This document shows positions 6,676 to 53,000 of a DNA stretch of 64,000 nucleotides, piece by piece. Numbering within the stretch: the first letter of the stretch is position 1; every line of letters starts with the position of its first letter. Where the stretch lies: contig NC_080423.1 of the NCBI RefSeq assembly GCF_029873635.1, positions 105,009,773 to 105,073,772 on the forward strand. Direction: 5' to 3'. The position numbers were made by a program, and so were the translations under genes. This stretch comes from Malania oleifera (Eukaryota > Streptophyta > Magnoliopsida > Santalales > Ximeniaceae). The notes under the pieces were generated by a model, which ran no database searches, was not told where the DNA came from, and saw only the letters and a program-made list of their open reading frames with translations.

Positions 6676-8171
6676 AAATATCGGTTCATTGGTTCATGAA
6701 CATAAGACAGGTAAAAAAGGACATGGAAATAGAGCAGGGCAAATCAATTAACCCAAGTTGCCGGTCAATTCTTATCAAAATTTTGGACCGGATTGGTTTT
6801 CAAATATTTTTTAGTTCTATAAAGTTGGCAACCATGTTATAGAATATACCTCATGCATCTCAACACAAGCTTTCGTGATTTGTGTTTCAACATTTGGAGT
6901 TCAAATTTGGGTAAGTGTAAAACAAAATGGTATAAAGTTTTATTTATATTTACACAAAGTTCAAATTTAATACGTGACGTTTACTCTCTCAATCGTAGTT
7001 TACATGTACATGCATCGGAAGATTCCACTCTGTTTTTCTTCTTGGGTGTGAGACAAAACCAATAATTAATCACATCAAATCGGTGAAGAAAATTTCTTTG
7101 GGCATCAATGCAATGAGGAACAAAACAACTTGGGTCAGTTCTATTATCTAAAACTCACTTTGGCTTTGTAATTTTGTCATGATTTTGAGTGGTTATGTTG
7201 TTATTCTTATCCTTAATGTTGTTTTATTCCTCTGTTTCTTCTCTTGGATTATGCAGGGATGTTGACAGCTTCCATATTTTTCATTATCCTCTTTGGTACC
7301 TTTTCCCTCTGGCCTCTTCTTTGTGTTTAGTCGGTCGCTTTTTATTTATTTATTTTGAAATGGCATTGGATTAGTCAGATCGGTCGAATGAAAAACTAAA
7401 CCAGCCTCTTGTTTGGTTGAATCCAAACTCAAAAAAATCGACTTGCTAAAGAATCATTCAAAGTCGATGAAAATTCAGGCTTCTCGAATTGATTTACAAC
7501 TAGTTTTGCTAAATAAATGTTAAAAATATGCAAAATATGTGTTGTATTTATCGTTAACGAACATAATATTTTAGAATCAATTATTTAAGGTTAAGTAAAT
7601 AACATTTGTTTACAAATGAAAATGTGATGTGGTCATGATTTTGAAATTTGGATGTGTGACTAGTTTCGTAAAGTGATGACCCATTGATGAGTGAAGATGT
7701 CTTATAGAAAATGCAAAATGCTTCATAAAGTATAATTGTTACAAATTCAAAAGTATTTTAAATACCAAATCAAAAGATCCTAAACTATCATATGCAAACA
7801 AATATTCAAGTAATACAACTGAAAAATCTCAGGTTATCACGGTTATCAGATATCAATCAATTTTCAGTTGCACAGGTTTTCGACAATTTAGCAACCGATA
7901 GAATCGTCAATGGTTTGGTAAAACCGATGAAACCGTTGACGATTTTCTCCTGAATATCTTTCTGTCTGAAACAGTTAAAGTAACTGTTGAAGGGTATATA
8001 GAAACCATCGATGGTTGGCTGGAAAACTGCAGTTTGCTTTATAAAATCAATGGTTAGACCAGTAACATGATTACAATAAAATACTCTTCAAATATAATAA
8101 TAAGACAAAAAATAGAGAACGTAAAACTTGTTTCAATACAAAAGTCATTTATGCATACATACACACACACA
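6676..8171. other. AT-rich intergenic sequence without recognised gene
   Basis: No convincing coding frame. Around 7880-8060 there is a cluster of short palindrome-like motifs (atCGTCAATGG, aaCCGTTGACGATT, accATCGATGGTT), comparable in style to the palindrome arrays in the LTRs further on. This may be a fragment of a different LTR family. A short CA repeat lies at about 8160-8170. Confidence 0.4.
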
Positions 8172-9710: not shown

Positions 9711-10077
9711 AAAATTTGACAAAATTTTACGTTGGTTATAAGTTAGCTAACACAATTTTGCTCCTTTATCTGACTTGGGACGGGATAAGGAAAGTAAGAA
9801 TTTTTTTTTCCCATTATTTAGTTATGAAAGAAAGTAAGAAAGAAAATAAAAATTACATCAAATCAATGAATAAAATTTGGTATAGTGAGAAAATATAATA
9901 GAAAATAAGTTTTTTCCTTATTTTTCTTTCGATTTCTTTCCTTAACCAAAATCCTTGATCCAAATGGACCCTAGAGCATTGTTGTATAGACCTGGAAAAA
10001 ATAATAATAATAATAAAATAAAAGAAATAAGAAAAAGAAAAGAAGGAAAAGGAATTATATTAAGGAGTATCAGCAAG

Positions 10078-10275
10078 AATTTGTCGACAAACCCAAGGTT
10101 CTCGTCGACGAACATCCTTCTAGATCCCGTAGACAAAGTACACGTGTCTCGTTGACGAGAAGATACTGAGAGCAGGAAATTCAGGCCATTAAGGTTTCGT
10201 CGATGAACTCATCATTTTCATTGACGAACACCCTTCTTTGACTCGTTGACGAGTACACGTGTCTCGTCGACGAAG
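10078..10275. promoter_or_regulatory. Array of TTCGTCGACGAA-type palindromes upstream of the LTR A TATA box
   Basis: Eight copies of a 12-bp self-complementary motif, each with zero to a few changes (for example CTCGTCGACGAAC, TCGTTGACGAG, TCGTCGATGAAC), spaced about 20-40 bp apart. The array ends just before a TATA-like sequence (about 10293). Equivalent arrays sit at the same place in the other three LTR copies (about 14810-14975, 17155-17405, and 44037-44170 on the other strand). The position suggests enhancer-like sites in U3. That is inference. Confidence 0.7.
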
Positions 10276-12172
10276 TCATGTGGCAACAGTCTATATATAT
10301 GTTAAGAATAAGATTTTCAGCAAACATTTCATTTCTTTCTTCCCTCTCTCTCTCTCTCTCTTTCTCTCTTTCTCTACTTTGGCTCTCCCTCCTTTTCTCT
10401 TTAGATCCAGTTCCGTTTTTCCCCGTTTTGACGATCGGAAGTTACCACGATGATCTCGAGGAGATTTTCTACAACTTGGCCATATCGGATTGCTGCTTTG
10501 GGGTGCTTGGGTACTATCCCAAAATCAGGGTAAGTAAGTTATTTTATGGTTTATGTGATTATTTAGTATATGTGAACCCAGGAAAGGTGTTAGATGGTAA
10601 TATACTGGGGTTTGAGTTGTTTGAACTAGGGTTAATGGGATTTCAGGGTTTGGAGTTCTGAACGCCGCAAGCTTGACTTAGGGTTTTCTACAAGCTTCTC
10701 AAAAAACAGGTAAGGGAATAAATTAAGTCAGGATTTTAAAAAAAAAATAATGTTTATTATTTGCAGCATATGTTTCAAAAATTTATTTATGAATTAATTT
10801 AGTTTTTAGGAATACCGGTGTTGAACAGAGAAAATAGATTTTATAACATGTAATAGTATAATACAGAGTAGAACTCACTCATGTGGCATGAGTATAAGTT
10901 TAATGTTATAACAACATGTCAAAATATGTTATTATTTCATAAAATAAGTATGATTTTACAGTAATTTTCAGAAAGATCATAAACAGTACAGAAACTAAGA
11001 TATATGCAGTATATTGTGTAATGACAGCCAGCGTAGATGCAGTGTAATGATAGCCGGCGCAGATGTTGTGATATGACAGTTAGCTTAGATGCCGTGATCA
11101 GTTTTAATATGAAAATTTATTTAGAAATTATGAAATGACGGCTTCTATTTAGAAATATGTAAAAGTCATATTTTATTTTAGAAATATGAAAATGTTATTT
11201 ACGAACAGAAATATATTATGTGAAATGTATTATATAGTAACAGAACCCGGATGGTTACGTATGTTATGAGCACGATACCGTTGCTAGCTAGTCAGATCGG
11301 AGAGTAGGATACCCAATGTGTGTCGACCCGTTAAAGGTTGACGAAGAGTAAGATGGGCGGACCAGATTGGTGTATAGCTGACAATGCAACCACACTATTC
11401 AGGAAGTGTGGGTTGGAGACCAATTAGCCCCGCAGTGTAGGCGATGAGTAGGATACCCTCTATGTACTGACCCGTTAGAGGTTTGACGGAGAGTAGGATG
11501 GGCATGCCAAGATGGGTGGGCAATCGTGCGTAGATATGCCATGTTTGACCTAACCTGGTAAGCCAGCCAGCGTTAAGTCCAACCTACGAGCCGCACAACT
11601 CAAATCATGCGAGGTTAATTCATGATATGCAGTTATACATCTAGGGTATCATTTCAGTAATATACAGATTTAACAGACAATTTAAGTGATACGAAAATTC
11701 ATTATGATATAGGAAGATTATGTATATAAGTACAAATTTTCATATGTTATCAATTACAACTTAAGATAAATAAATATATATACAATTTGCAATATATGTT
11801 TATAACACGATTGAAGTCATGTTGTCACATAATGATATTAGTCTATTTCTCTTACTGAAAGGTGTCTCACCCTAGCATTACAAATATTTCAGGAAACCCC
11901 GACAGACGAGTGGAGTGAGCTTCGTGATAGAGGAGTTCGTTGGTATTACCTCAGTTACAGGGTAAGTAGTCGAGTCGGAAACAAGATGGATTTTTGGGGT
12001 GTATATGTGTATATGTAGAAACAGTGAAACTCTGGTATTATATATAAGTTAGGTATGTTATAGTTCTGCTATTTAAATGACATGTATGTATAAACTGGTA
12101 AATTCCTAGTACCTATGGGTCCGGATTGACTTTGACTACATTTTATGATATCAGAGTATTAACTGTATGTTG

Positions 12173-12173
<1 letters not shown>

Positions 12174-12206
<33 letters not shown>
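12174..12206. repeat. (AAT)n microsatellite
   Basis: About eleven AAT units just inside the 3' end of solo LTR A. Confidence 0.9.
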
Positions 12207-12207
<1 letters not shown>

Positions 12208-12508
12208 TAGTAGAAATTGGGGTCATTACAGTTGTAGTTTACTTTTTTTTTTAAACTCTTTTTCTCTCTCTCAAATACATATTCGAACACATTTTATACG
12301 ATGATTCTCATAGAGATAGATGTGTATTTGTCCAAAGTCCAACCCCCATTTTCTCCTATTTAAGGATTCAAATTTTCAATATCGCACAAGATGATTGCTA
12401 AACTCACAAACTCATATCAACTTGCTCATTCTCCTTATAATATAAAACGTACCACGTTGTTGGATATACTTTTGCTTCTGTTAATTATTGTAGCCTGGGA
12501 GTATATAT

Positions 12509-13132
12509 GTGTGTCCCGCAATGGATATACAATGTAGAGTCAGAGGGGGGTGATTGACTCTTTTTACGTATATTAAATTTTTTCTACAAAATAAAATATA
12601 TTAGCAAGATGGCAAGCAGTTATATCACAATATACAAAATATAAATCATGCACAAGATAATAAAATAAAGAGTAGGGAGAGAAAATCAACACCGGTATTT
12701 TTACGTAGTTCGACTCCAAGCCTACGTCCATGCCTTAGCACCAAGCAAAGGATTCCACTATCCACTATCAATGCTCCTTCCTCGGAAGAACAAGCCTTGC
12801 AACTCGGGTACACAACCCTATGTGTGCCCCACAGCGGATATACAATGTAGAGTCAGAGGGGGGTGATTGACTCTTTTTGCGTATATTAAATTTCTCTACA
12901 AAATAAAATATCTTAGCAAAATGACAAGCAATTATATCACAATATTCAAAATATAAATCATGCAAAAGACAATAAAATAATGAGTAAGGAGAGAAAATCA
13001 ACACTGGGATTTTTACGTGGCTCAGCTCCAAGCCTACATCCACGCCTTAGCACCAAGTCAAGGATTCCACAATCCACTATCAACGCTCCTTCCCCGGCGG
13101 AGCAAGCCTTACAACTCGGGTATATAACCCTA
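12509..13132. repeat. Two-copy tandem duplication, ~312-bp unit, in an LTR-like repeat
   Basis: Unit 1 (12509-12820) and unit 2 (12821-13132) both begin with a TGTGTGxCCC-type block followed by GGATATACAATGTAGAGTCA and AGAGGGGGGTGATTGACTC, and end with CAACTCGGGTA(C/T)A(C/T)AACCCTA. They differ by scattered substitutions and short indels. The AGAGGGGGGTGA and ACGT(A/G)G(T/C)TC..AGCCTAC(G/A)TCCA motifs are common in a widespread class of non-coding plant LTR-type repeats. Sequence of similar origin seems to continue to about 14746 and again at 16822-17075, where an AACATTCTCCCCATTTTTT motif typical of these repeats appears. Confidence 0.75.
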
Positions 13133-14746
13133 CACTTGGGAACAAATCCCTACTTGCTCACAAAGAGCCTTTACCAAGCGGCTCACCAAGAACCCTCGCA
13201 ATGGTTCACAAAGAACTTTACACAAAGTAGATGATTACAATGAGAATGCTCCTTGAATGAGCAAATATTAAATACGAAACAAACCTCACACTTCTCTCTC
13301 AAGAATTGTATCAAACAAGATTGGAGAACAAGAGAGATGAGCACTTGTGAATATGAATTAAGATGCAATGTGCTAGGTTTTGGAATCAAGGATATTTTTC
13401 ACTATAAGCTTGTATAAATCATCAAAATCATGTCTAAACAAGCCTAATAGCTTGTATTTATAGCCAAAATACCCAAATAGTCGCTATTGGACTGTTGGGA
13501 GCAATTCCCAAACAAAACTAGCCATTTTTGCTTGTTAGTGTGTAACGCCCCAACCTAGGTCTGTTAGGGAGCACTGCGTCTTTCCTCCTCCACCTGGACT
13601 AGACAACAAGAGGTGGGCGCCTTATTAGACTAATGATTGGCCCCATAGACCAACACATATCCTTCAGAATGTTTCGTCCTCACTCACACACTTCGTGAGA
13701 AAACTTCCCAGAAAGTTACTCATCCCAAGATTACTCCAAGCCAAGCACGCTTAACCGTGGAGTTCTTACGGGAAGGCTCCCGAAAAGAAAGTTGCACCTT
13801 ATTGATATGGGTAGTAACATATAATCTTTTTAAACCTTTATTCCATGGGGTATCGCATAGCGTCATTCTTCCTGTTAGGCTCGTCGACTAGTTTCAACTA
13901 GTCACTAGTCGACGAATGCCCTATTGTCTCGATGAGTGCCCTAAACTAGAAAAAGTAATCAACATGAAAGTTGTGAGATTTTTTCCTAACTTTTCAGGGA
14001 CACCAAGATAGTCCTTTTTGGACTTTTTAGCAAAAGTTATGCCCCAAATACCGAAAGGTGTTTAGGAAATTTGATAGATGCATAACTGAGATTTTAAACC
14101 CAACCGAAAAGCCTTTTAATCACTTAAAACATTCTTGGACAAAAGTATATAAAATATATAAAGTCTAATAAAGATTAAAACTTATCCAAGTGAGTTTCCA
14201 CTTAAATATAAGATATTTGGATTTATGAAAACATCTTTGAAAGATCATTTGATATCTTATATGCTTAGAATGTCCTTTATAAAAAGTATTTGACTTCTTT
14301 GAAGTTTTAGGACATTAACCATGCTTTGATAAGACCGAGACCAAGTATGAAGATGTTCAAAATACCAAGATGTTGAAAACTTGTCCCTTTTGAAAAGATA
14401 TTTTGAGTTTCAGATTCTTTTGGCAAACTCTTTAATTTTAACTTTGAAAACTATGAATTGAGTTTTTGACTTTTAGTGCAATATTATAAACTCAAGTGTC
14501 CTAGTAAGTATGCATTGGCTCAACTCTTGCTCAGAAATCATGCAAGAAACACACCTGTAAGAGTTACAACATAGACTACCTCAAACACTCCCCAAATACA
14601 GATAAGACTACATTAAGCTTCCTTTGGTCATGCTTGGGTCCTTCCGAGTACGTGTTTATTTGATCTTTCCTTCTTGACATCTACTCGGTCTAACATTTGC
14701 CTTCGATCTAGTACTTCATGTACGAGTACTTGTACTAAACATGATC
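13133..14746. mobile_element. Non-coding LTR-type repeat sequence, interrupted by solo LTR B
   Basis: This continues the repeat above and includes a TGTAACGCCCCAACCTAGG block at about 13542, a frequent plant LTR motif, and a CTCGTCGACTAGTTTC/ACTAGTCGACGAA inverted pair near 13881-13917. No protein domain is detectable. The segment resumes after solo LTR B at 16827, following the duplicated TGATC. I could not find its outer termini, so its class is uncertain. Confidence 0.4.
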
Positions 14747-16821
14747 TGTGACAACCCGAATAAATATGGAATTTAAATAATAAAGAAGAAAGGAAATACC
14801 TAGAGGACTCGTCGACGAACACAGGGAATTCGTCGACGAGGCTAGAAGAAAATTCATCGACGAAGACTGAATTTCATCGACGAAGAAATACCGAGAGAGG
14901 TTTTGAGCCAATTGAATTTAGTTGACGAAATTAATGAAGGATTCGTCGACGAATGACGTGGCTCGTCGACGAATCTAGTTCTATATACATCAAAAATCCT
15001 ATTTTTAACTTCACCCTTAAGCTAACTCTCTCCTCTCTCTCTCTCTCTCCCCCCTTCGGCCCTTTCTCTCTCTCTCATCGATTTTGGGCGAGACTTACAC
15101 TGGATCGACAATCTAAAGTCACCACGACACTCCTGGGGAAGTTCTCTCCAAATCTGCCAGAGCGGATCGTTGGTGAAAGCAATTTGCGAATCATCCCTAA
15201 GTTGAGGTTAGGATTTTTAAGCCAAGTTTGGTCTTATGATAGTTGTAGGAAATGATATACACGCGAAAATATTGAGGTTTAATACTGGGAATTTTCAGTT
15301 TTAGGGTATTGATTAGGAAATCCTACGGGGGTTAGACCAAGATATTTTAGGGGTTTTCTTAGTAGTCAGGTAAGGGAATAAACTAAAGCAGTTACTTTCC
15401 ATGCAAATTATTATTAATTATGAGTAAATTTATTTTCAGAAAAGCATATATAATATTTGTATATTATGGATGAAATCTACGTTTGGGAAATACTGCTATT
15501 ATGTTGAAATGTATATGTATGTATGAGATGCCAAAGAATTACGATTTTTAGAATAAGAAGTATGATTTTATACAGTACATGTGTGGCATGAATATTATTT
15601 TACATGAAATGTATTATGATATGAAAGATTTTATGAGCAAAGTATGTTTTCAGGTATTATGAAAAGATATATTATGTTATGATGATTTTGACGAATACAT
15701 GATAATTGATTTATTTTCAGAATGTATATACCTGAAATGATTCCGACGCGAGGTCGTGTAATTATGTTATGTTCGGCGCGAGGCCTTAATTATGTTATGT
15801 TCGGCGTGAGGCCTTAATTATGTTATGTTCGGTAGGAGGCCGTAATTATGTTATGTTTGGCACAAAGCCGTAATTATGTTATGTTCAACACGAGGCCGTA
15901 ATTACGATATGTTCGGCACGAGACTGTAATGATGTTATATATGATCATGTATTATATGTTATCAGGACCCGGATGTTAGTTTAGTTTAGTTTAGTTCAGG
16001 GGCTCAGTACTGTAGCTTATAGATCAGATGTTTATGATCAGATTAGTGCTAACCACCCCATGAGGGGGTAAGAGATGGATAGTCGATGTGGCTTTCAGTA
16101 GAGTGTGGACGTCCACCTGGCAGTCCGGACCAGGGTGTAGTGGGCCCATCGTACTTATAAACATATTTGACTCGGCAATGGTCAGCTAGCCATTGTCGGG
16201 TCCCACCTTCGGGCTACACAACCCGTCATGGGGGGTAATACATGACACCAGCTAGCTATTCATCCTGGATATATTTTCAATATGATAGTTATAATAGATG
16301 TTTTATGTATGTTATGATTTATTAACAAATATGAAAGTTTATGATTATCTAGTATGATATGATGAATATTTATAGAGTTATGAAATGTACTATATATGTA
16401 TAAGTGCCTTAAATATTCATGTTACCACGTATTTAGTTTATTTTCCCTTATTGAGAAGTGTCTCACTCCCGAACATTAAATGATTTTTAGGAAACCTAGA
16501 GAGACCGGCGGGTTAGGGCCGCCATTGAGTGATTGGAGCTTCCCTACTAGAAGGGTAAGCGTTGAACTAGGATCAAGAGATTTTTGTTGTATGACCCTAG
16601 TGTTATTTTAACTTTTTTTTTTTTAGGTTGTATATAGGAACAGTAATTTGATGATATAGTAAACTCTGGTATTATGTTTTATGGTTGGATGTTTGAGATT
16701 TTATACTTACTGTTGCTTAGGTTTCCGCTGTGATTGACAGGTGTCCCCGTTACCCATGAGTTCGGGTTGACTTTTCCATTTACTATGTTATATTTTATAT
16801 TAAGAAATTGAGGTTGTTACA
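14747..16821 (+). mobile_element. Solo LTR B with perfect 5-bp target duplication
   Basis: Starts TGTGACAACCCG and ends GAGGTTGTTACA. It is flanked by TGATC at 14742-14746 and 16822-16826. It is 2075 bp, in the same arrangement as copy A: seven TTCGTCGACGAA-type palindromes (about 14810-14975), a CT-rich leader (about 15025-15080), AGGTAAGGGAATAAACTAA near 15366-15387, a 28-bp minisatellite of about seven units (15745-15935), and the conserved block (about 15960-16260). No internal retrotransposon region is attached. Confidence 0.88.
15745..15935. repeat. Minisatellite, 28-bp unit, about 7 copies, in LTR B
   Basis: Tandem units of the form AATTATGTTATG then TTCGGCGCGAGGCCTT, with a few substitutions in each. 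It occupies the position where LTR A has a 26-bp array and LTRs C and D have a different array of about 29 bp. Confidence 0.88.
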
Positions 16822-17075: not shown

Positions 17076-20000
17076 TGTAGTGACCTGAAGAATAATATTA
17101 TTTAAATAATAAGGGGGAGAGAAATAGAATCAGAAACAGAAAAAGGCTGTAGATATTGTCGATGAACGCTCCGCGTTCGTCGACGACATTGCATTTTGGA
17201 GAATAAAATAATTTTAAGGAAATTACCAAACTTCGTCGATGAATACAGGGTTTCGTTGACGAAGGTCTTAAGGATTTCGTCGACAAGAAAATATCGAGAG
17301 ACGGTTTGGGTTGCTCTAAATTTTGTCTACAAATACAGGGCTTCGTTAACGAATTTACTGAAATATTCGTAGACAAGAAAATACAGGGTAAGGCTTCGTC
17401 GACGAATGATCCTGGGGAAGTTCTCTCCAAATCTGTTGGAGTGGATCGTTGGTGAAAGTTAGGTGGAAACTATTCCAAATTCAGGGTAAGGCTTTTTACT
17501 CAATATTTGAAGTTTTGACAGTTGTAGAAAGTGATATAATCGTAAAAATATTGAACTTTAGTTCTGAAAAATTCTGTTTCCATGGGTGTTGAATTGGAAA
17601 CGTTGGGGATCATCTCAGAGTTGAGGTAAGACTTTTTAAGCCAAATTTGGCCTCAAGATAGTTATAAGAAATGATGTATGCATGAAAATACTAAAATTTA
17701 ATACTGGCGGTTTTCATTTTCAGGGTATTGGTCAGGAAATCCTACCGGAGGGGGGGGGGTAGACTAGATTGTTTTGGAGGCTTCCTCGGTAGTCAGGTAA
17801 GGGGATAAACTAAGCTAGTTCTTTTTGGAAAAAATGTATGTATATATATATGAGTTATATTTGGGAAAATACTGCTTAAATAATGTTATGTTGAATACGT
17901 GGAAAGTATGTTTAGTGTGGCATGAGTATAAAACGTTGGAAATACTATTTTCTGGAAATGTGAATGATACGGATTTTTTTTATGATGGGAAAATCGGCGT
18001 ACGGGCCGAGGTCTTTTTTTATATGTTTGCTGACGTACGGGTCGTGTTATGTGACTAGGCCTGGCAAAATGGGTCATAACCCATCGGGTCACCCGGACCC
18101 GTCCGTTTAAAACGGGTCCAGGTTTAAGAAAGTTAACCCATTTAATAATTGGGCGGGTCACGGATTAACCCGTTTATAAACGGGTTAAGTGGGTTTGGGC
18201 GGGTCACTTGTTAATTTCAGTTCAGTGCTTCTTCAATTCTTCTCACACGCGCACGCCTCACCCTCACGGTTCACACTTCACAATCACACACACTTAAAAA
18301 AAATAAACCCTAAGGTAAAGTTCCCCTTCCCGACTCCCTAACTCGCACCGCGCCTCTCTAGTCTCCACTCTCTAGTCTCCTCTTCTGGCGCCTAGGTCGT
18401 CTCTCTAACCTCTTGTCCACGACATCTTCTTCGTCCCCAGCGACTTCAACCCCACTCACAGCCACCCCGGCAACATAGCCAAACGTCCCATACCATAATT
18501 CCTAGAGCAGCAATTGTGAACCGGCACACCCCCACGATCTCAACACCGGAGCACAGTTGCCGTCGTCACCCTTCGTCTCCAACAAGGTCCTGGACGAAAA
18601 TGTCATCGCTAGCCTCCAGTCTCCACTCTCCAGTCTCCTCGTCTGGCCAGCTCCACCTCCACAGACCACTTCTCCACACACGTCAACCCCCCCCCAGCTC
18701 CACACACCATTTCTTTTTATTTAGAAATTAATAAATAAAATGCAGTTTTTTTTTGAAATGTCATTATATATGAAATTTTAAAAAATTATATATTTTTAAA
18801 CGGGTGACCTGTTACCCGCCCGTTTATTGAATAGGCGAGTTAGGGTTGGCATGTGTATGGTCCGTTTAACATCGACCCGTTTATGATCCGGCCCGTTAGT
18901 GACCCGCCCAAACCTGACCCGCCCGCCCGTTTTGCCAGGCCTATATGTGACTGTGATTTGCCAGCGTACGGGCTATGCTATGTTTGCCGGCGTACGGGCC
19001 ATGCTATGTGACTGTGATTTCGTAGCGTACGGGCTGTGCTATGTTTTGCCGGCGTGCGGGCCGAGCTATGATAAAATGTGTAATATCAGCGTATGTGCTG
19101 ATGATTTTCATGATACACGAATATATGCAAAATGATATGATTGATGTGAGAATAAATGATATGAAATATCTATGTGTCACAGTTTTAGTATATGCTATAT
19201 GATATCAGAACCTGGTTGGCTTGATCTAAGTTAGCACTTGCACGGTACCGTTGCTATGTGTCCGTTGTCTTCGTGATCATGATATTTGTGTTAACGCCAC
19301 TGTACGGAGTGGTGTGAGATTGGATGGTCGATGTGGTTATTAAAGAAGTGTGCTGTGATCGCCCCTGGTGTACGGACCAGATCTGGCAGACCTATTGGAC
19401 CTACAGACTACTGTTTGACTTGGTAGTGGTCGGCCAACCATTGTCAGGTCCTGCCTTCAAGCCACACAACCCAGTTATGTGGGGGTAATACATGACAACT
19501 GCCAGTTAACCTACCAAGATTGTTTTTATGTTATTAGAACTATATGAGATGAGGTATGTTTATGTAAATGCAATATGTTCTGCCATGATTTGATACACAT
19601 ATGTTTTCCTAGATTTGACAAACAGTACTGAATATGTTATATATGATATATGTAGAACACATAATACTCATGTTGCCACACACTAGTATAAGTTTATTTC
19701 TCTTACTGAAAGGTGTCTCACCCCTAAATCTTATAAACTTTTCAAAAGCCCCAGATAGGAGAGCGGGAAAAGCCCTGCTAAGTTAGTGCTGTGTATCTGT
19801 CCTTTTTGAAGGGTAAGTTTTGTAGGGACAGTTAGATTTTTGGAGAAATGTCCCTAGGTCTTATTTTTGAGATGTATATATATGAAAATACTGTGGACTA
19901 TAGCAACTCTGGTATATTGTATTATATGGTATTGAGATGTACATTTTTGTATGTTTTCTGCTGCTAGGGCTTCTGTTGTATGTTTTGATATATCCCTGGT

Positions 20001-20104
20001 ACCCATGGGTCCAGGTGGATTGTGACCTACTGAACTGGAATATGGGAAATGTGCTATTGATATTATCAAAAAAAAAAATGTGGAAAAATGAGCAAGTCGT
20101 CACA
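17076..20104 (+). mobile_element. LTR C of the same family, interrupted by a hAT element
   Basis: Starts TGTAGTGACCTG and ends CAAGTCGTCACA. Without the hAT insertion and its extra 8-bp repeat it is about 2.13 kb. It has nine degenerate palindromes (17155-17405), but the usual TATA/CT-rich leader between the array and the CTGGGGAAGTTCTCTCCAAA block seems to be missing. Junctions CAGGGTAAGGCTTTTTA and CAGGTAAGGGGATAAACTAA follow. A minisatellite of GTACGGGCC-containing units is split by the hAT element. The 3' end closely matches copy D. The flanks (CTCTA and CTTTT) are not a convincing target duplication. It lies only 254 bp after LTR B. Confidence 0.75.
18056..18943. mobile_element. Non-autonomous hAT element (888 bp) with 8-bp target duplication
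   Basis: Perfect 14-bp terminal inverted repeats TAGGCCTGGCAAAA / TTTTGCCAGGCCTA, extended by GGGT- and CGGGTTA-rich subterminal repeats. It is flanked by TATGTGAC at 18048-18055 and 18944-18951. The 8-bp duplication and the CCTGGCAAAA terminus are typical of plant hAT transposons. The interior (about 18240-18720) is GC- and CT-rich and resembles a promoter plus 5' leader, not a transposase ORF. The copy is therefore probably an internal-deletion derivative mobilised in trans. It sits inside the minisatellite of LTR C, whose units contain TATGTGAC. Confidence 0.93.
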
Positions 20105-41000: not shown

Positions 41001-44000
41001 GGTAGGTCTCTCACTCTATTTATAATATCTGTCAAGTACTATATCTATTACCATAATACCGTTACTAACTCGCACTTACTAACATAACTCTAACACACAA
41101 TAATAATGCTAATGACTAAATAACCATTAACACTCTCCCTTAAGTTGGAGCATATATATCATATGCTACTAACTTGTTACAAATAAATTTCACACGAGCA
41201 CCTCTGAAGGCTTTTGTGAGCAAATTAGCAGGCTAAAACTAAGGCTTCACATGAGTGGTCGTAATGAGCTTCTGTACAAGTTTCTCTCGAATAAAGTGGC
41301 AATCAACTTCAATATGCTTTGTTTGCTCATGGAAGACCGAGTTGGAGGCAATATGAATAACAACTCGATTATCGCAGTTCACACATCAACTCCATAGGCC
41401 GAGTATATGGAAAGCCTAGTTCTTTCAGCATGTTCTTCAACCAAACAAGTTTACATGTAGTCCATGCCATGACTCTCTACTTTGACTCAGCACTTCACCT
41501 TGCCACTATAGTTTATTTCTTACTTTTCCAAGACACCAAGTTGGTACCGACAAAGATACAATACTTAGTTGTGGTTCTTTGCTCGGAAGGCAACTCTACC
41601 CCCTCTGCATCTATATATCCTTGAATGTAAGTGTGACTCCAATCCTGATAGAAGAGACCTCTGCTTGGTGCACCTTTGAGATATCTCAAAATGCGAATTA
41701 CTACATCCTAGCTACTTGCTCTTGGTGAATCGAGAAATTGACTCACAACACTTGTTGAGAAGGATATATATGGTTGAGTGACTATGAGAGAATTCAACTT
41801 TGCAAAAAGTCTTCGATGCCATCCTGGGTTAGACAACAAATCACCTATATTTGGCACTAACTTACTATTGAGATCCATGGGCGTATCAACGAATTTGGAT
41901 CCGAACTCCCCATCTCATCTAAAAGATCATGAACATACTTCCTTTGTAAAAGACAGTTCCCATATAAGATCTTGATACTTCAGACCTAAAAAGTACTTCA
42001 ATTGTAACGACCTGCTCATTTTTCACATATATATATATATATATATTTTTTTTTTTTTCTCTTTTTATATCAATCAACATCAAACCAAATCCACACATCA
42101 CACATACCAGCTCAGCAGGTCACAATCCACCTGGACCCGTGGGTACCAGGGATATAATAGAACATACAGCAAAAGCCTACGTAGCAGAAAATATAAAATC
42201 ATATACGTCTCATCATAATGTGCATAACACATACCAGAGTTACTACTATCACTATCTCACAGTATATACATCTCAAAAATGGAATCTAGGGACAATTCCC
42301 ACAAAACCTAACTGTCCCTACAAAAAACTTATCCTTCGCAGAGGGCAGATAAACAACACTACTTCTGCGGGGCTTTTCCCGCTTTCCTATCCGGAGCTCC
42401 TGAAAAGTTAATAAAATTTAGGGTTGATACACCTCTCAGTAAGGGAAATAAACTAATACTAGTGTGTGGCAACATGAGTAATTCGTGTTCAACATATATC
42501 ATATACAACACATTTAGTACTGTTTCATCAAATCTGTGAAAACATATATATATATATATATCTCAACAAAGCAGAACATACTGCATTCTCATAATATATC
42601 TCAACTCATGTCATAATAATAATAACATAAAAATCATCCTGGTGGGCTAGCTGGCTGTTGTCATGTATTACCCCCACATGACTGGGTTGTGTGGCCCGAA
42701 GGTGGGACCTGACAATGGTTGGTCGACCACTGTCAAGTCGATAGTCTAGTCTATAGGTCCGATGGGTCTACCCAGACTGGTCCGTACACCAGGGGCGATA
42801 ACAGCACACTTCTCGAAAATAACCACATCGACCATCCAATCTCACACCACTCCGTACAGTGGCGTTAACACAGATATCATGATCACGGGGATCATGGACA
42901 CATAACAACGGTACCGTGCAAGTGCTAGCCTAAATCAAGCCAACCAGGTTCTGATATCATATACATATACTGAAACCGTGATACATAAATATCTCATTTC
43001 ATTTATTTTCACATCAATCGTATCATTTCACATATATACATGTATCATAAAAAAAATCATCGGCCCGTATGCCGGTATTTCTCATTTTAACATAGCTCGG
43101 CCTGTACGCCAGCAAATCACATAGTACAGCCCGTACGCTGGCAAACCACATAGCACGGCCTGTACACCAGCAAATCACATAGCACGGCCCGTACGCCGGC
43201 AAACATATCCACATATATATATATATATATATGTACAAAAACATCTCGGCCCGTACGCCGATTATCCCTCATAAAAATCCACATCATCCACATTCCTAGA
43301 AAATAGCATTACACAATATTTTTACTCATGTCACACAGTAGATTTTCCACATACTCAACATACGATCATTTTCACAGTATTTTGCAAATATAAAACATAC
43401 GTATATATAAACATATACATTTTCCATAAATCAAATGATAACTATATATATTTATAAGCATTTTCCAAAACAGTACTAGCTTAGTTTATCCCCTTACTTG
43501 ATTCCTGGAAAGCTCCTAATAAAATTGCCCCGCACCCGCAGGGTTCCTAACTCAACACCCTGAAAATGAAAAATCTCAGAATTAAAGTTCAGTATTTCGA
43601 AACATACAATATTTTCCTCAACTACCAAAAACTCAAATATTGGGTAGAAAGTTTTCACCCAAAAGCATTCAAGTTTAACACCTGAGGGGTTTCCTGTCCA
43701 ATACTCCGAAACTGAAAACCTCCAGTATTAAACTTCAGTATTTTCATGCGCACAACATTTCTTCTAACTAGCGCAAGACCAAATATGATTTAAAAAGCCT
43801 TACCTCAACTTTGGGATGATTTCCAACTAGCTTTCTCCCACGATCCGCTCCAGCAGATTTGGAGAGAACTCCGTCAGGAACGTCGTGGTGACTTCGGATT
43901 GTTGATCTGATGACTGGTGGGGCCGAAAATGTAGAGAGAAGGGAAAGAGAACCGTAGAGAGAGAGAGAGGAGAGAGAGATTTCTAAAAAAAATGATATTT

Positions 44001-47000
44001 CTCCCGGATTTTCGTATATATATAAAACAGGATTTTGTCGACGAGCCCGACCTTCGTCGATGAGTCCTTCACAAATTTCGTCGACGAGACCCTGTATTCG
44101 TCGACGAAATTCAGGCTACCCCAGAACCTCTCTCGGTATTTTCTCGTCGACGAGGCCCTATGTTTGTTAATAAAGTCTACGGCTTCCTTCCGTTTCCGGT
44201 TTCCATTTCCCTTTCCTTATTAATTAAATTTCATTTTTAAATTCAGGTCGTTACATCAATGGTCCCAAGTCATAGGTTTGAAAGTTACTTTGTAGGAAAA
44301 GCTTTAGGTCTTGAATGCCTCGATCATCATCACTAGTGATCACGATGTCATCCACATACACAATAAGCAAATATTGTCAGACAGAGGCCAAACTCAAGTA
44401 CTACAACACTAAATTAGCCCAACCATGCTCTGGGAGATTGTTTTAATCTACGCACACACTGAGCTTGACTCCCTTGAGCAACAAACTCGGGCAATTGCTC
44501 CATTTAGACCAGATTACCATGTAGGAAAACATTCTTCACATCTAATTGACGTTGAAGCCAATGACAAGTAGTGGCTGAAGAGATGAACAAACATACCGAG
44601 ACAAGTTTAGTGACCGGAGAGAATGTGTCTGAATAATCCAAATGGCACTCCTGAGTAGATCCTTTAGCAATAAGGCTGGCCTTCAAACGAGCCACAAAAC
44701 CATCAGGATTGACTTTCACATTGTACACCCAACGACAATCAACCACAGACTTATTAGGAGGAAGAGATACCAAATCCCAAGTGTCATTACCATGTAGTGT
44801 ACGCATCTCTTCAACCACTGCAATCCTCCACCTTGAATGGGATAGGGCTTCAGAAATAGATTTTGGAAGAGCAACAGAAGATATGGTACTAACAAAACAG
44901 TATACAAGGGTGACAAGAAATCATAACAAACAAAATTAGAGATTGGATGTTGGTACAAGTGCATTTACCTTTCCGAACAACTATGGGAGGATCAACATCA
45001 TGGGAAATAAGATCATTGACTAGGGAACTAGAGGCGGTGTAATAAAAGCTGGAAGTGGCTCTCCTCCCTTGAGTTGTCATGTGTATACTTGCAAATTGGG
45101 ATGATCCAAGCAAAGGGAAGACTCAAACTTAATGAAGATGTAGGAGGGTTGGGCACAAATAATAGGTTGGGATTTGGAAGGCAAGGCAGAAGAAGGGACT
45201 CATCAAGTTCAATAGAGCTCAAAGAATCAGAATGGTATAGTGTAGACTGAAAAAAAGTGACATTAGCAGAGACAAAGAATTGATGTAAAGTAGGCTATAA
45301 CTTCAATATTCCGTTTGAGTATAGAAATAGCCCCGAAAAATACATTTGATAGCATGAGGATCCAACTTATCCATTCCTGGAGTTAATTGATGGACAAAGG
45401 TCAAAGGACACACTATCGAATATACGAGGAGGAAGGGAGAATAAAGGAGCCTTTGGGAAGATAATTGAATATGATATTTTATCACCAAGGATAGAGGATG
45501 ACATTTTTGTTGATGGGGGAGCAAACTGTGAGCACAACATCACTCCAAAAAACTTTGGGGACATTCATTTGATACAATAGGGTACAAGTGACTACAAGAA
45601 TATGTCTATTTTTTGTCCTGAAACTCCATTTTGTTGTGGAGTGTGGGCAAAATAAGACTGACAGATCATACTAGAATTAGTCATATAGGTAGTGAATTGG
45701 GTACTAAAGTACTGTAGCATTATCACTACAAAGTAACCTGGCTAGTATATCAAATTGAGTCTTTATTTGAGAATAGAAGGCACAAAATACATTAAGCAAC
45801 TTAGAACTATCTTTCATTAAATATAACCAAGTCATCCTGGAGTATTCATCAAGAAATGTAACAAAGTACCATAACCCCAACTTTGACATCACACAACTAA
45901 GACCCCAAATTATTGGAATGGACTAGCATGAAAGGACTAACCACCTGTTTGTTGACCTAGCAAGCAAAGGGAAGACAATGATGTTTTCCCAATTAACAAG
46001 ACTCTCACTCAAGATTAACTCAATGTAGGAACTTGCTGTTTCAACTTGTCCAAGGATGGATGATCAAGGTGACAATGGATTTGAAGTGGTGTAGCTGCGG
46101 TTGTACAGGCGATGGGAGGAGAAAGCCACTTAAAGTAGTAAAACCCACGAGCCTCACATCATGTGTCCATTGTCTTTCTCATCTTCATATCCTCAATAAC
46201 CACATAATCAGGAAAGAAAGTGACAGAACAATTTAGTGGCTTTGTAAGCTTTTTAACTGACATGAAATTGAAATGAGATTTAGAAATGTATAGAACATAA
46301 AAAAGAGAGATGGAAGGAGTAGGATTTACTGCTCCTATCCCCGTAACTGCAATAGTGGACCCATCAGCAAGGGTAACCTGGGGTAGATTTTTAGTACCAG
46401 AGGGCAGAAATGACATTGTTTGCACTTGTTATATGGTCAATAGTAGCAGAATCGATAACCCAAGGATTAGTGGGAAAGATACCAGAGGACATACAAATTG
46501 TAGGATTAACTTTTTGGGCAAGAGATGCAATGTGATAAGATGCTTGTTGAGACGATTAATACTGTAGAAACCTTGAATAGTCCTCCTCTGATGTAGTCAC
46601 AGTATGCAGTTCACTCAAACTAGTGACAAACGAGGGAACCATACTTTTGGGATTTGTAGACTCCATCCCAACACTCACAAACTTAGACTAATGATAACAA
46701 GAATGATTGCTGGAACAATTGAAACAACCACGATCAAGGTGACCCACCATGAACGAGTCACAAATAATCAGTACAAGGCTGCCACAACACCAAGAAACTC
46801 AGACACAGCCTGAAGAAATCAACACACAGCATTGGAACGAGTGGAGAGGTGAAGTTGGTGAACCACCGAACTACCATGGACAAATCACCAACAAACTTGC
46901 AGAAAACAGCCTCACAGAAAACAGCTATGAACACTACCACTGCTCCAAGAGACTCACCAATGGCCTTTACTAACTCCGAACAACAACTAACAGATTACCA

Positions 47001-50000: not shown

Positions 50001-53000
50001 GAGGCCATGGGGGTGTTTTGGGACAACTATAGATAGTTATAGGAGTTTAAAAACTAGACCAAGAAAGGAGAATCCCATTTCTAATAGTAGAGATTAAACT
50101 ACGTGTCGACACCTGACTCAGGTGACCCATTTATTGTGAGCAAGTTTGGTAACCATTTTGAAAAATGTGTAAAGTATAGAAAACCAAACCATCAGTTCTC
50201 GAACTCACCTTTTATTTTGAAAATGGAGTCGCCACTTTATATTATTTTTTGATAAGGTAAAAATAAAGGAAAAAGCTTTCAAAGAGTTGAGTTTGAGAGT
50301 ACCTTTGTGAATAGGAAAGGTAACCCATTAATTCTTTAAAATAAGAATTAAGAGATTAACACCCTATATCACTCGTTCTCAGAATGGTTACTGTATTTGC
50401 ATTGTGTACGTGTCTCTCTTAAAAAGATAGAGTTTTTTGACATTGAATTTTCAAGAATTTTTGCAAAAAATGAGAGGAGGCATGGGCTGGTTGAACACCC
50501 TCAGAGGCTGATCAATCGTGCTTTGCTCTCAGTAAAACCGGTTGGCTGTCTCCTAATGGGCAGTAGACTGCCTAAAGTAAGTGGCCACCCACTTTTTTTT
50601 TTTTCCAGAAAAATCATGTGGTCAACCTAAACCTTTGAAATGACTTTCATAAGGTTTGTGCAGATGCTTTTGCCTTTTGAAGATCCTACTACTTTATTGC
50701 CTTTTCAATTTGCAAAAAAAATTTGAAAAAAACACACAAAATTCACGAAAAAGAAAGATAAGTTTTTATTTTATTTTATTTTTAATAGTTATGGCTACAT
50801 CCATATTGAAATAGACTGACTACAGACCCAAAAATAGAGAGATCAAGCCATTTGTAGCTCCCAAAACATTTTTAAATTTTACTTAGAAACATTTTGGGTT
50901 TTAAAAGAAACCTCGACTTTTTGGAGAAAAATCAATATTTTTAGCAAAAAACATGATTTTCCAGAACACTCTAAATTTACAGAGCCTTAAAATCACTGAA
51001 ATTTTAGAAAAGAAATCCATTTTCCACCCTCAAGTTGTATCGTGGGTCATCATCTTGAAAAATGATTTATTTTTTAAAATAAATTTGAGTTATTGGTTTT
51101 TTGGTGGGAGAACCACAAAACTCACTTTGAAAACGTATGAATTCTAGGAAAAAGTTATTCTAAAAAAGTGTCCAAAAGCACATCATGGACATTCATTTTA
51201 GAAAAAGACCTTTTTTTTATTTTATTTTTAAAGAAGTTCTTGAAGAAAAATGACTTTTTTAGTTTTTTAAGGAGAAAACCATAAACTAATATCATTCAGA
51301 CAACCAACAGACTCAACCAAATACTCTAGTGTGTGTATAAACGCTAAGGTATCTCAAGAGACCAAGGAAAAGTCTAGAAAAGGACCAAAAATGACCACTG
51401 GACTAGGATGTCAACCGTACCTTAAGGGTTGGTCAACCGGTCGGTCTGCAGATGGTTGACCAGCCCTAAAGGCGCGATTGACCGCTTGTATGCACATTTC
51501 ATAAATTCACAAATTTTGTGCATGTTTTTAAGAAATCAATGCATTAACCCTACACTAGACCTAGTTGACGTGTTAACATTGGAAATCAGCATGCATGCGT
51601 GAGAAACAGTATAGAAAAGTTTTGCAAACTCATTTAGACAAATTGTATTTTCTTGAAAAGAGTCGTGGAAATCAATTTGATTGTAAAACATGGATGCTTT
51701 TCTTCACCAAAACGGTGAGAACACATTACTTTTTCATGAATTTGAACTCAGAACATTGAGCTACATGAAAAACTTCAACATACACATTTTTGCATGCATA
51801 ATGAAATGTGAACTTGGGACTTGAAAGAAAATGGTAAGAGGATTGACCTAAACACGAAATTTCTTGTAGGTATAGTGGGAAAAACACTTTCACAAAGAAT
51901 GGAAAGATGAGATGAGAAACAAAGCAATGAGAGAATAAGTGTTTTCTCTCCAAAAACCAAAGTTCTGGTTTCTTCTCTAAAGATGGAAGAACACTGTTTT
52001 TTCTTCAACAAAGCCTCTCTTTTCCCTTGCTATGGCATGCAAGAAATTGCCCCTTGTATGGTCTATTTATAGACCATGCAAAAGGGAGGGAAAGGAAGTT
52101 GGAAATTTTTATGTTAAAATTCAAAATTCCAACTTCCAAAACCACCAACTGAAAACTATCAATTCCCTGACTCGTTGCTTGACTCGTGGCAACAGCTAGA
52201 ACACATGGTCCACCCAAAACAATTAGCCAATCAGAAGCAAAAAAAATCAAAAGTTAAATTTTAACTGAACTGATTGACCACCCTATAGAGGGCCAGTCAT
52301 CCGCCTTTTAGTGGCCAATCAACCGCTCTGTGCAATTTTTATTTCTTCCTTTGTTTTAGTTTGATTTTCAAATTGTTTAGCTGATTTATTATTTGTTTGG
52401 TTAAAAAATGACTACCGACGCTACGAAATTGCATAATTACTACTATAATTTGGACATTTTTAATTAAGCAACAAGATAATCCTCAAGGATGGCAGGAAGA
52501 TGTGGTGACAATAATGTCTAAAGCTATAAGTTTCACCTCCAATATCCAACAATTGGCTTCACTTGTTTTAAAATTAAAAGGGTAAATGGGTTGACCCATG
52601 TGTAAATCAGTAGGATCATGAATGGGTCAAATCATTTTATATAAATGGGTCATAGATGGGTAAATTTGCCACTAAATTCACTAATGACTTGACCCACCGT
52701 TACCCATACCCTCCCATTTTACATGTCTAATAGTAGTGAAGTCATATATTGCCTGTTGTAACTAAAAATATATACTATGACCGTGATAAGAGTACAAGAT
52801 ATGTTGAAAGTATGAGATTATGGATTTCTTATTTGTCAAGGATGTCTTTTTAGCACTTGGTTTTAGTTACCTTCCTTTTTCTTATAGAAGTCACGAGTTA
52901 TGAGACCCCCTCCTGCAATTTCATTGCTTTCTTTTTCTTTATGATCTGGGAAGTACTTGGGCATGAATATGTTAATACCTATCTGCATTCATAAGTTTAT

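Follow-up and report, generated by a model that had tools for sequence, protein, structure and literature searches.

The array of 12-bp palindromic boxes (YTCGTCGACGAR, with three CpG each) near the 5′ end of four LTRs, A–D, is interpreted here, with moderate confidence, as an upstream promoter-enhancer (U3) belonging to an LTR retrotransposon family of the Ty3/gypsy type, probably a chromovirus, in which the boxes are most likely sites for one dimeric host protein. The LTRs lie in the window, i.e., the 64,000-nt stretch of Malania oleifera DNA that was analysed, which has a plant-type gene content (PPR, MA3, and TPR genes together with a copia remnant). A U3 enhancer with about eight dimeric-factor sites is suggested because of the position of the array before the TATA box, its layout, the bZIP site that it often contains, and the likeness of the palindromes between lineages.

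Box arrays in four LTRs of the window

All four LTRs have TG..CA ends, and their 5-bp target duplications are exact in B and D, carry one mismatch in A, and are weak in C (Table 1). They are taken as solo LTRs since the list of window ORFs contains none of at least 150 aa within them and a comparison of the window against itself revealed no second LTR with which any of them would form an intact element. Among 16 more LTRs with both ends, six show an exact 5-bp duplication, the end pairs having been picked for the best match (another 15 entries were without a found end). LTR D appears, by eye, to sit in a copia-like pol remnant. Identity among the four LTRs is 49–75% in a forced global alignment; whole-LTR alignment with MAFFT handled the array poorly owing to its repeats, and later comparisons were therefore anchored on the boxes. 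A DNA transposon with subterminal transposase-binding repeats is rejected because of the TG..CA ends, the 5-bp duplications, and the PBS-bearing relatives described below.

Table 1. Positions in the window of the solo LTRs, their box arrays, and the TATA box of LTR A.
Feature	Position	Strand	Description
Solo LTR A	9983..12230	+	2248 bp; ends TGTATAGACC...GGTCATTACA; flanks ATTGT/GTTGT, one mismatch
Array in LTR A	10080..10274	+	8 boxes; starts 10080, 10101, 10126, 10148, 10196, 10217, 10242, 10263; spacing 21-25-22-48-21-25-21; ACACGTGT separates boxes 3-4 and 7-8
TATA of LTR A	10292..10297	+	17 bp past last box; CT-rich stretch next
Solo LTR B	14747..16821	+	2075 bp; ends TGTGACAACC...GGTTGTTACA; flanks TGATC/TGATC, exact
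Array in LTR B	14808..14973	+	7 boxes; spacing 21-24-20-45-24-20; TGACGTGG between last two; TATA at 14982, 8 bp past last box
Solo LTR C	17076..20104	+	3029 bp; foreign insert near 18058-18942; flanks CTCTA/CTTTT, imperfect
Array in LTR C	17155..17406	+	9 boxes; without TATA or CT-rich leader downstream
Solo LTR D	42003..44255	-	2253 bp; ends TGTAACGACCTG...CAGGTCGTTACA; flanks ATTGA/ATTGA, exact
Array in LTR D	44034..44154	-	5 boxes; spacing 46-20-24-19; TATA 9 bp past last box

A sequence-only reading of this DNA had described a palindrome array with seven to nine boxes in each of four LTR copies. The array itself proved real: the window contains 26 sites within two mismatches of TTCGTCGACGAA against 0.89 ± 0.91 expected, and none of 100 shuffles reached 26. 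The box counts are, however, 8, 7, 9, and 5 in A, B, C, and D when up to three mismatches to YTCGTCGACGAR are allowed. Furthermore, when clusters built around perfect 10-bp palindromes were sought de novo, all four arrays were recovered and 20 shuffled windows yielded no cluster; the sole other cluster in the window, CGTAATTACG at 15757–15906, is a 28-bp tandem repeat within LTR B. The placement of the array upstream of a TATA box, claimed for all four copies, applies to A, B, and D but not to C, in which the last box nearly abuts a GGGGAAGTTCTCTCC block that in B sits about 160 bp after the TATA. The last spacer holds the bZIP site in B and ACACGTGT in A, D has neither, and C has lost the region. 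Two other palindrome clusters, from which it had been suggested that the design may have arisen more than once, fail the cluster scan: CATCGATGG, near 7880–8060, amounts to one exact and two 2-mismatch sites at 7905–8053, and GGTTGACC, near 51410–52335, to loose matches scattered over 1 kb. Repeated origin within the window is thus unsupported at these two places.

Several other features of the window stand out. The insert of about 890 bp within LTR C (18058–18942), with inverted ends AGGCCTGGCAAAA.../...TTTTGCCAGGCCT, resembles a small DNA transposon insertion. A second tandem array of 26–28 bp units (e.g., GTAATTATGTTATGTTCGGCACGAGGCC) is found mid-LTR and differs per LTR (15758–15938, 11016–11079, and 18944–19070). 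The bodies of A–D, from about +450 to +1870, contain by eye a splice-donor-like GGTAAG and an acceptor-like TTTTCAGG, as if a leader were spliced within the LTR. A further element start, TGTAACGCCCC, occurs at 13541–14746, where two sites at 13880–13916, CTCGTCGACTAG and CTAGTCGACGAA, are inverted and have a GTCGAC core; LTR B, and possibly also C, may be nested in that element. Two tandem copies of a 312-bp unit with 88% matches occupy 12506–13132, and the loose GGTTGACC/GGTCAACC words at 51409–52330 could be a decayed Sirevirus-type CGGTCGACCG array.

Genome-wide abundance and sampled copies

In the same assembly (1.49 Gb, 510 contigs), the exact word TTCGTCGACGAA occurs 37,861 times against 67 for its reversed control. 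The form with the central CpG changed to TpG/CpA, TTCGTTGACGAA, is present 17,681 times (8,777 + 8,904; control 67 + 69), and the three possible substitutions of T5 (equivalent to A8 on the opposite strand) sum to 1,877 (922 + 955; control 174 + 196). The junction of the LTR end with a tRNA-Met-type PBS, GGTCGTTACANNTTGGTATCAGAGC, was counted 1,451 times (727 + 724; reversed control 0) and an LTR-body 15-mer 2,675 times (1,329 + 1,346; control 2 + 1). Exact-pattern scans gave no match in prokaryote contigs and none for the LTR body in viral contigs; the box-pair pattern gave 13 stretches in viral contigs, with a GC of 0.60–0.75, which are taken as chance.

Further comparisons draw on 45 arrays located within roughly the initial 2.5 Mb of contig C1, defined as clusters of at least four boxes at two mismatches with overlaps removed, most of the loci having been picked for an exact box. 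They are not all separate insertions, given that a single element has its LTRs in L038 and L044, as another probably does in L033 and L034. Arrays were oriented by score, and at least two TATA-less ones (L040 and L044) are misoriented judging by their spacers, which for L044 is confirmed by its LTR partner; both are absent from the 25 TATA-proximal and 24 distal quartets (of 68) used below, as far as the listed spacers show, and the effect of misorientation on the decay spectrum is to swap C>T and G>A, nothing else. Array-less copies as abundant and young as the array-bearing ones, which the sequence-only reading had named as an outcome that would speak against its proposal, did not appear in this sample as judged by numbers: 29 of 31 LTR bodies carry at least three boxes upstream, a fraction biased by loci that were mostly box-chosen, and so do boxes stand upstream at all five places at which the body 15-mer was found regardless of boxes in the first 2.5 Mb of the contig. 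One of the two box-less bodies, L044:8092, lies in the portion of a 3′ LTR beyond an insertion, and its array is at L044:5103–5438.

Identity of the element

The array, the LTR end, and the PBS occur together in L037 and L038. Downstream of the L038 LTR, L044 contains RVP_2, RVT_1 (below cut-off), RT_RNaseH, and SH3_Tf2-1 in Ty3/gypsy order as separate open pieces, with integrase read from the SH3_Tf2-1 domain and not from the integrase core. The LTRs of this element are 87–89% identical, and an insertion interrupts the 3′ one. Additionally, the gag pieces of L048 and L050, loci which were found via the PBS junction and whose arrays were not seen, match Retrotrans_gag, while Ty3_capsid is above cut-off in L050 only. 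By these sampled relatives, the family is assigned from its coding pieces to Ty3/gypsy.

A 43-aa tail at L044:4709–4837 matches Pfam Chromo with an E of 0.014, below cut-off, and has weak sequence matches in the PDB, of which the best (E 0.022) is an uncharacterised chain and the other seven are M-phase phosphoprotein 8, chromodomain Y-like, and chromobox proteins. Judging by these matches, the tail is likely a chromodomain and the family is probably a chromovirus, which we take, as a guess, to belong to the Tekay/Del clade.

Layout of the array relative to the TATA box

Adjacent boxes in the 45 further arrays are spaced 19–21, 24–25, or 44–51 bp apart in 278 of 307 cases, and at least one 20-24-20 quartet, with 1–2 bp of play per spacing, is present in 44 of 49 arrays when those of the window are included; the gap between quartets is about 46 bp. 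Distances from the TATA were taken from the 29 of 49 arrays in which a TATA begins no more than 18 bp from a box, a set that excludes most of a second subfamily. Relative to the last box, box 7 lies 19–21 bp before it in 28 arrays, box 6 43–46 bp in 28, box 5 63–67 bp in 24, and box 4 108–115 bp in 27. In 27 arrays, the TATA starts 7–11 bp beyond the last box (8 bp in 20), and in two it starts 17–18 bp beyond it, whereas the distance from the LTR start to the last box is variable (SD 50 bp in the 26 of 29 with a found start). In the second subfamily, the gap is about 50 bp and the TATA lies 18–20 bp past the last box, and LTR A is similar. No TATA was within reach in 13 of the 45 further arrays.

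In 15 of the 25 TATA-proximal quartets, TGACGTG(G/T), in the form of TGACGTGG or TGACGTGT, occupies the spacer before the last box. The last spacer contains an ACGT core in 17 of these 25, against two of 24 distal quartets, and eight of the 25 are without it. Across the 45 arrays, TGACGTG stands forward 15 times and never in reverse with respect to the assigned orientation. TGACGTGG is described as a plant promoter element of bZIP proteins, namely the TGA1 and G-box binding factors, in the excerpt at hand of PMC3438128; here, it is one element inside the array, and the boxes themselves are devoid of an ACGT core.

The palindromes might alternatively act as RNA. By base pairing between adjacent boxes, the U3 part of the transcript would form hairpins that contribute to some stage of the life cycle or are a source for small-RNA silencing by the host, much as has been suggested for Sireviruses of maize. 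Consistent with such a role, each array of the window folds better than all 200 of its own dinucleotide shuffles (z −5.47, −4.49, −3.11, and −4.74), and the portions seen of PMC5311732 and PMC10760457 describe palindrome regions of Sireviruses as small-RNA hotspots; the maize elements, treated there after Bousios et al. 2016, resemble the present ones in bearing palindrome clusters in the LTR regulatory region, although motif and superfamily differ. Palindrome arrays fold anyway, however, and the folding score is no independent evidence for a function of the RNA. Compensatory change within boxes, tried as proof of RNA structure, is unclear and does not support it, since only two of six pairs were slightly above shuffles (P 0.055 and 0.03; 386 boxes). 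Moreover, a fixed TATA distance is expected of a promoter and less so of an RNA hairpin. We regard the RNA role as unlikely.

Conservation between lineages and decay in place

Pairwise identity is 0.77–0.84 for the boxes, 0.40–0.56 for within-quartet spacers, and 0.28 for random words. Spacers as conserved as the 12-mers, the other outcome that the sequence-only reading had named as speaking against its proposal, are thus not seen in the sample, where it must be considered that boxes were selected at no more than 2–4 mismatches, which favours conserved ones. Selection by one half of the palindrome, which removes this bias only partly, leaves 0.55–1.55 bits per position in the other half and at most 0.51, mostly below 0.3, in the flanks. 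Conservation likewise extends to a ACCGAGAG-like stretch that follows the distal quartet (identity 0.705).

This likeness between lineages contrasts with change in place, for which one LTR pair and one likely pair are available. In the L038/L044 pair, the boxes differ at 21 of 96 bases (16 CpG transitions), the spacers at 13 of 94 (four), and the rest at 9 of 146 (two). The corresponding values for L033/L034, which have the same orientation and lie 7.3 kb apart, are 15 of 84 (eight), 20 of 151 (four), and 18 of 128 (one). Without CpG transitions, boxes and spacers differ at 5 of 96 vs 9 of 94 bases in the first pair and at 7 of 84 vs 16 of 151 in the second, i.e., the boxes change about equally to the spacers or somewhat less. 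Three further sets of nearby arrays, whose orientation or distance shows them not to be LTR pairs, have boxes that changed less than the spacers (16 of 120 vs 35 of 132 and 15 of 96 vs 26 of 143 bases) or to about the same extent (12 of 101 vs 11 of 106). After insertion, no clear protection of the boxes is seen, and overall they change the most; therefore, their likeness between lineages stems from replicating elements, by selection or by homogenization. Boxes are probably kept by selection while elements replicate and eroded once these are inserted.

A functionless, minisatellite-like expansion within the LTR, spread by the success of the family, is a further explanation. The two quartets resemble a duplication of about 110 bp in some LTRs, such as LTR A with similar spacers in both, and arrays of up to 12 boxes occur in the 45-array sample. 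Tandem duplication nevertheless predicts spacers as alike as boxes, which is not observed, and the boxes are more different than spacers within LTR pairs, yet less so between lineages, so that such an origin without function appears very improbable. With respect to the enhancer reading itself, recopying of quartets or homogenization could keep both layout and boxes alike for a while. Also at odds with it, some spacers are kept too (the 0.705 stretch and TGACGTG), and not every spacing corresponds to a whole number of helical turns. With a turn of 10.5 bp, the eight sites are distributed all around the helix (Rayleigh R 0.03), the 20–21 bp pairs being approximately in phase and successive pairs not.

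The changes within boxes are concentrated, and not spread along the motif as had been stated. In the inner 10 bp of the window boxes, 27 of 28 changes fall on CpG positions, 23 of these being C>T or G>A, and the four T/A positions are changed in 1 of 116 instances. The 386 boxes agree, with 284 transition-type and 38 other changes at 2,316 CpG positions and 26 changes at 1,544 T/A positions; C>T or G>A at CpG positions makes up 284 of 348 inner changes. Erosion of the boxes after insertion presumably proceeds through methylation. The proposal that the array is a repeated methylation target accordingly gains a decay spectrum that fits methylated CpG, although the decay may be a consequence and is in itself no proof that methylation is the function.

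These features lend themselves to another explanation, namely a small CpG island, formed by the boxes, that acts as a switch through its methylation and is recognised by a CpG-reading or demethylating host protein rather than by a classical sequence-specific activator. CpG observed/expected exceeds that of the flanks (150 + 160 bp) in all 45 arrays (median 1.87 vs 0.82), the boxes have a median of 19 CpG per 100 bp against 2.1 in the spacers, box decay is mostly CpG transition, and RM boxes of Sireviruses likewise define CpG islands in the sections seen of PMC2829016. CpG readers, however, need neither the rarely changed T/A positions nor a 12-bp word or fixed spacing, and we consider it improbable that the island as such is what is read.

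Comparison with known palindromic arrays

The same palindromic-box design is in print for Sireviruses, which are Ty1/copia elements. In the parts available of Bousios et al. 2010 (PMC2829016), their LTRs are reported to carry palindromic repeated motif (RM) boxes, at least eight per RM-bearing element, in the upstream LTR half, where the boxes form their CpG island before the TATA, which follows the island by 37 bp on average. According to the same parts, a CGG-CCG core signature is found in 12 of 13 RM boxes, and the RM is called Sirevirus-specific and absent from the classic Ty1/copia elements of that paper. As far as this description goes, the two systems share palindromic, CpG-rich boxes clustered upstream of the TATA in the LTR, and a GTCGAC core is common to the Vitis Sirevirus RM, CGGTCGACCG, and the box YTCGTCGACGAR. 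In contrast to the RM, the present box lacks the CGG-CCG signature, the sampled coding pieces are those of Ty3/gypsy and not of copia, the quartet layout is absent from the RM description in those parts, and many copies have a bZIP site in the last spacer. Membership in the Sireviruses is rejected because of the Ty3-type coding pieces (L044, L048, and L050) and the box core. By analogy, the two designs may share a working principle.

The reading of the boxes as binding sites of a dimeric factor is supported indirectly by their 12-bp edges, the spacing from the TATA, and the likeness between lineages despite decay; no plant factor with a TCGTCGACGA site was identified. The PLACE entry CBFHV (RYCGAC), a CBF/DREB-type site in the excerpt consulted of PMC4482647, fits the GTCGAC core on both strands; it is a loose 6-bp match, which the 12-bp palindrome and its T/A positions exceed. 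Literature on palindromic arrays in Ty3/gypsy, Tekay, and other plant LTRs, represented mostly by titles and the beginnings of abstracts, does not describe this family, box, or layout at that level, and searches with the letters of the box returned only papers with unrelated titles.

Proposed mechanism and implications

In the enhancer model that we favour, each 12-bp box would be bound by one host protein as a dimer, and typically eight such sites, arranged in two quartets at a fixed distance from the TATA and often joined by TGACGTG, a bZIP site, in the last spacer, would drive transcription of the element RNA. Elements that keep their boxes would replicate, leaving boxes alike between lineages while spacers drift. 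An inserted copy would presumably be silenced and methylated, whereupon the three CpGs of each box would turn into TpG/CpA.

A bolder version, which is possible but rather doubtful, envisages a methylation-gated, eight-site composite enhancer with a fixed grammar, invented independently or retained in the Ty3 lineage. The dimeric host protein would bind the CpG-rich boxes only when unmethylated and would work with a bZIP protein at TGACGTG; the activating CpGs would then be those that methylation destroys, which would provide a built-in decay clock for each insertion.

If the enhancer model is true, a 12-letter word that recurs exactly at least 37,861 times in a genome of 1.5 Gb would be a largely transposon-borne binding site, and one 12-mer at fixed spacing would offer a handle for finding the host protein behind a successful retrotransposon. 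The palindromic-box promoter design of Sireviruses would likewise extend to Ty3/gypsy elements, and the contrast between parts that are alike between lineages and yet change fastest in place could flag functional parts in other transposon promoters.
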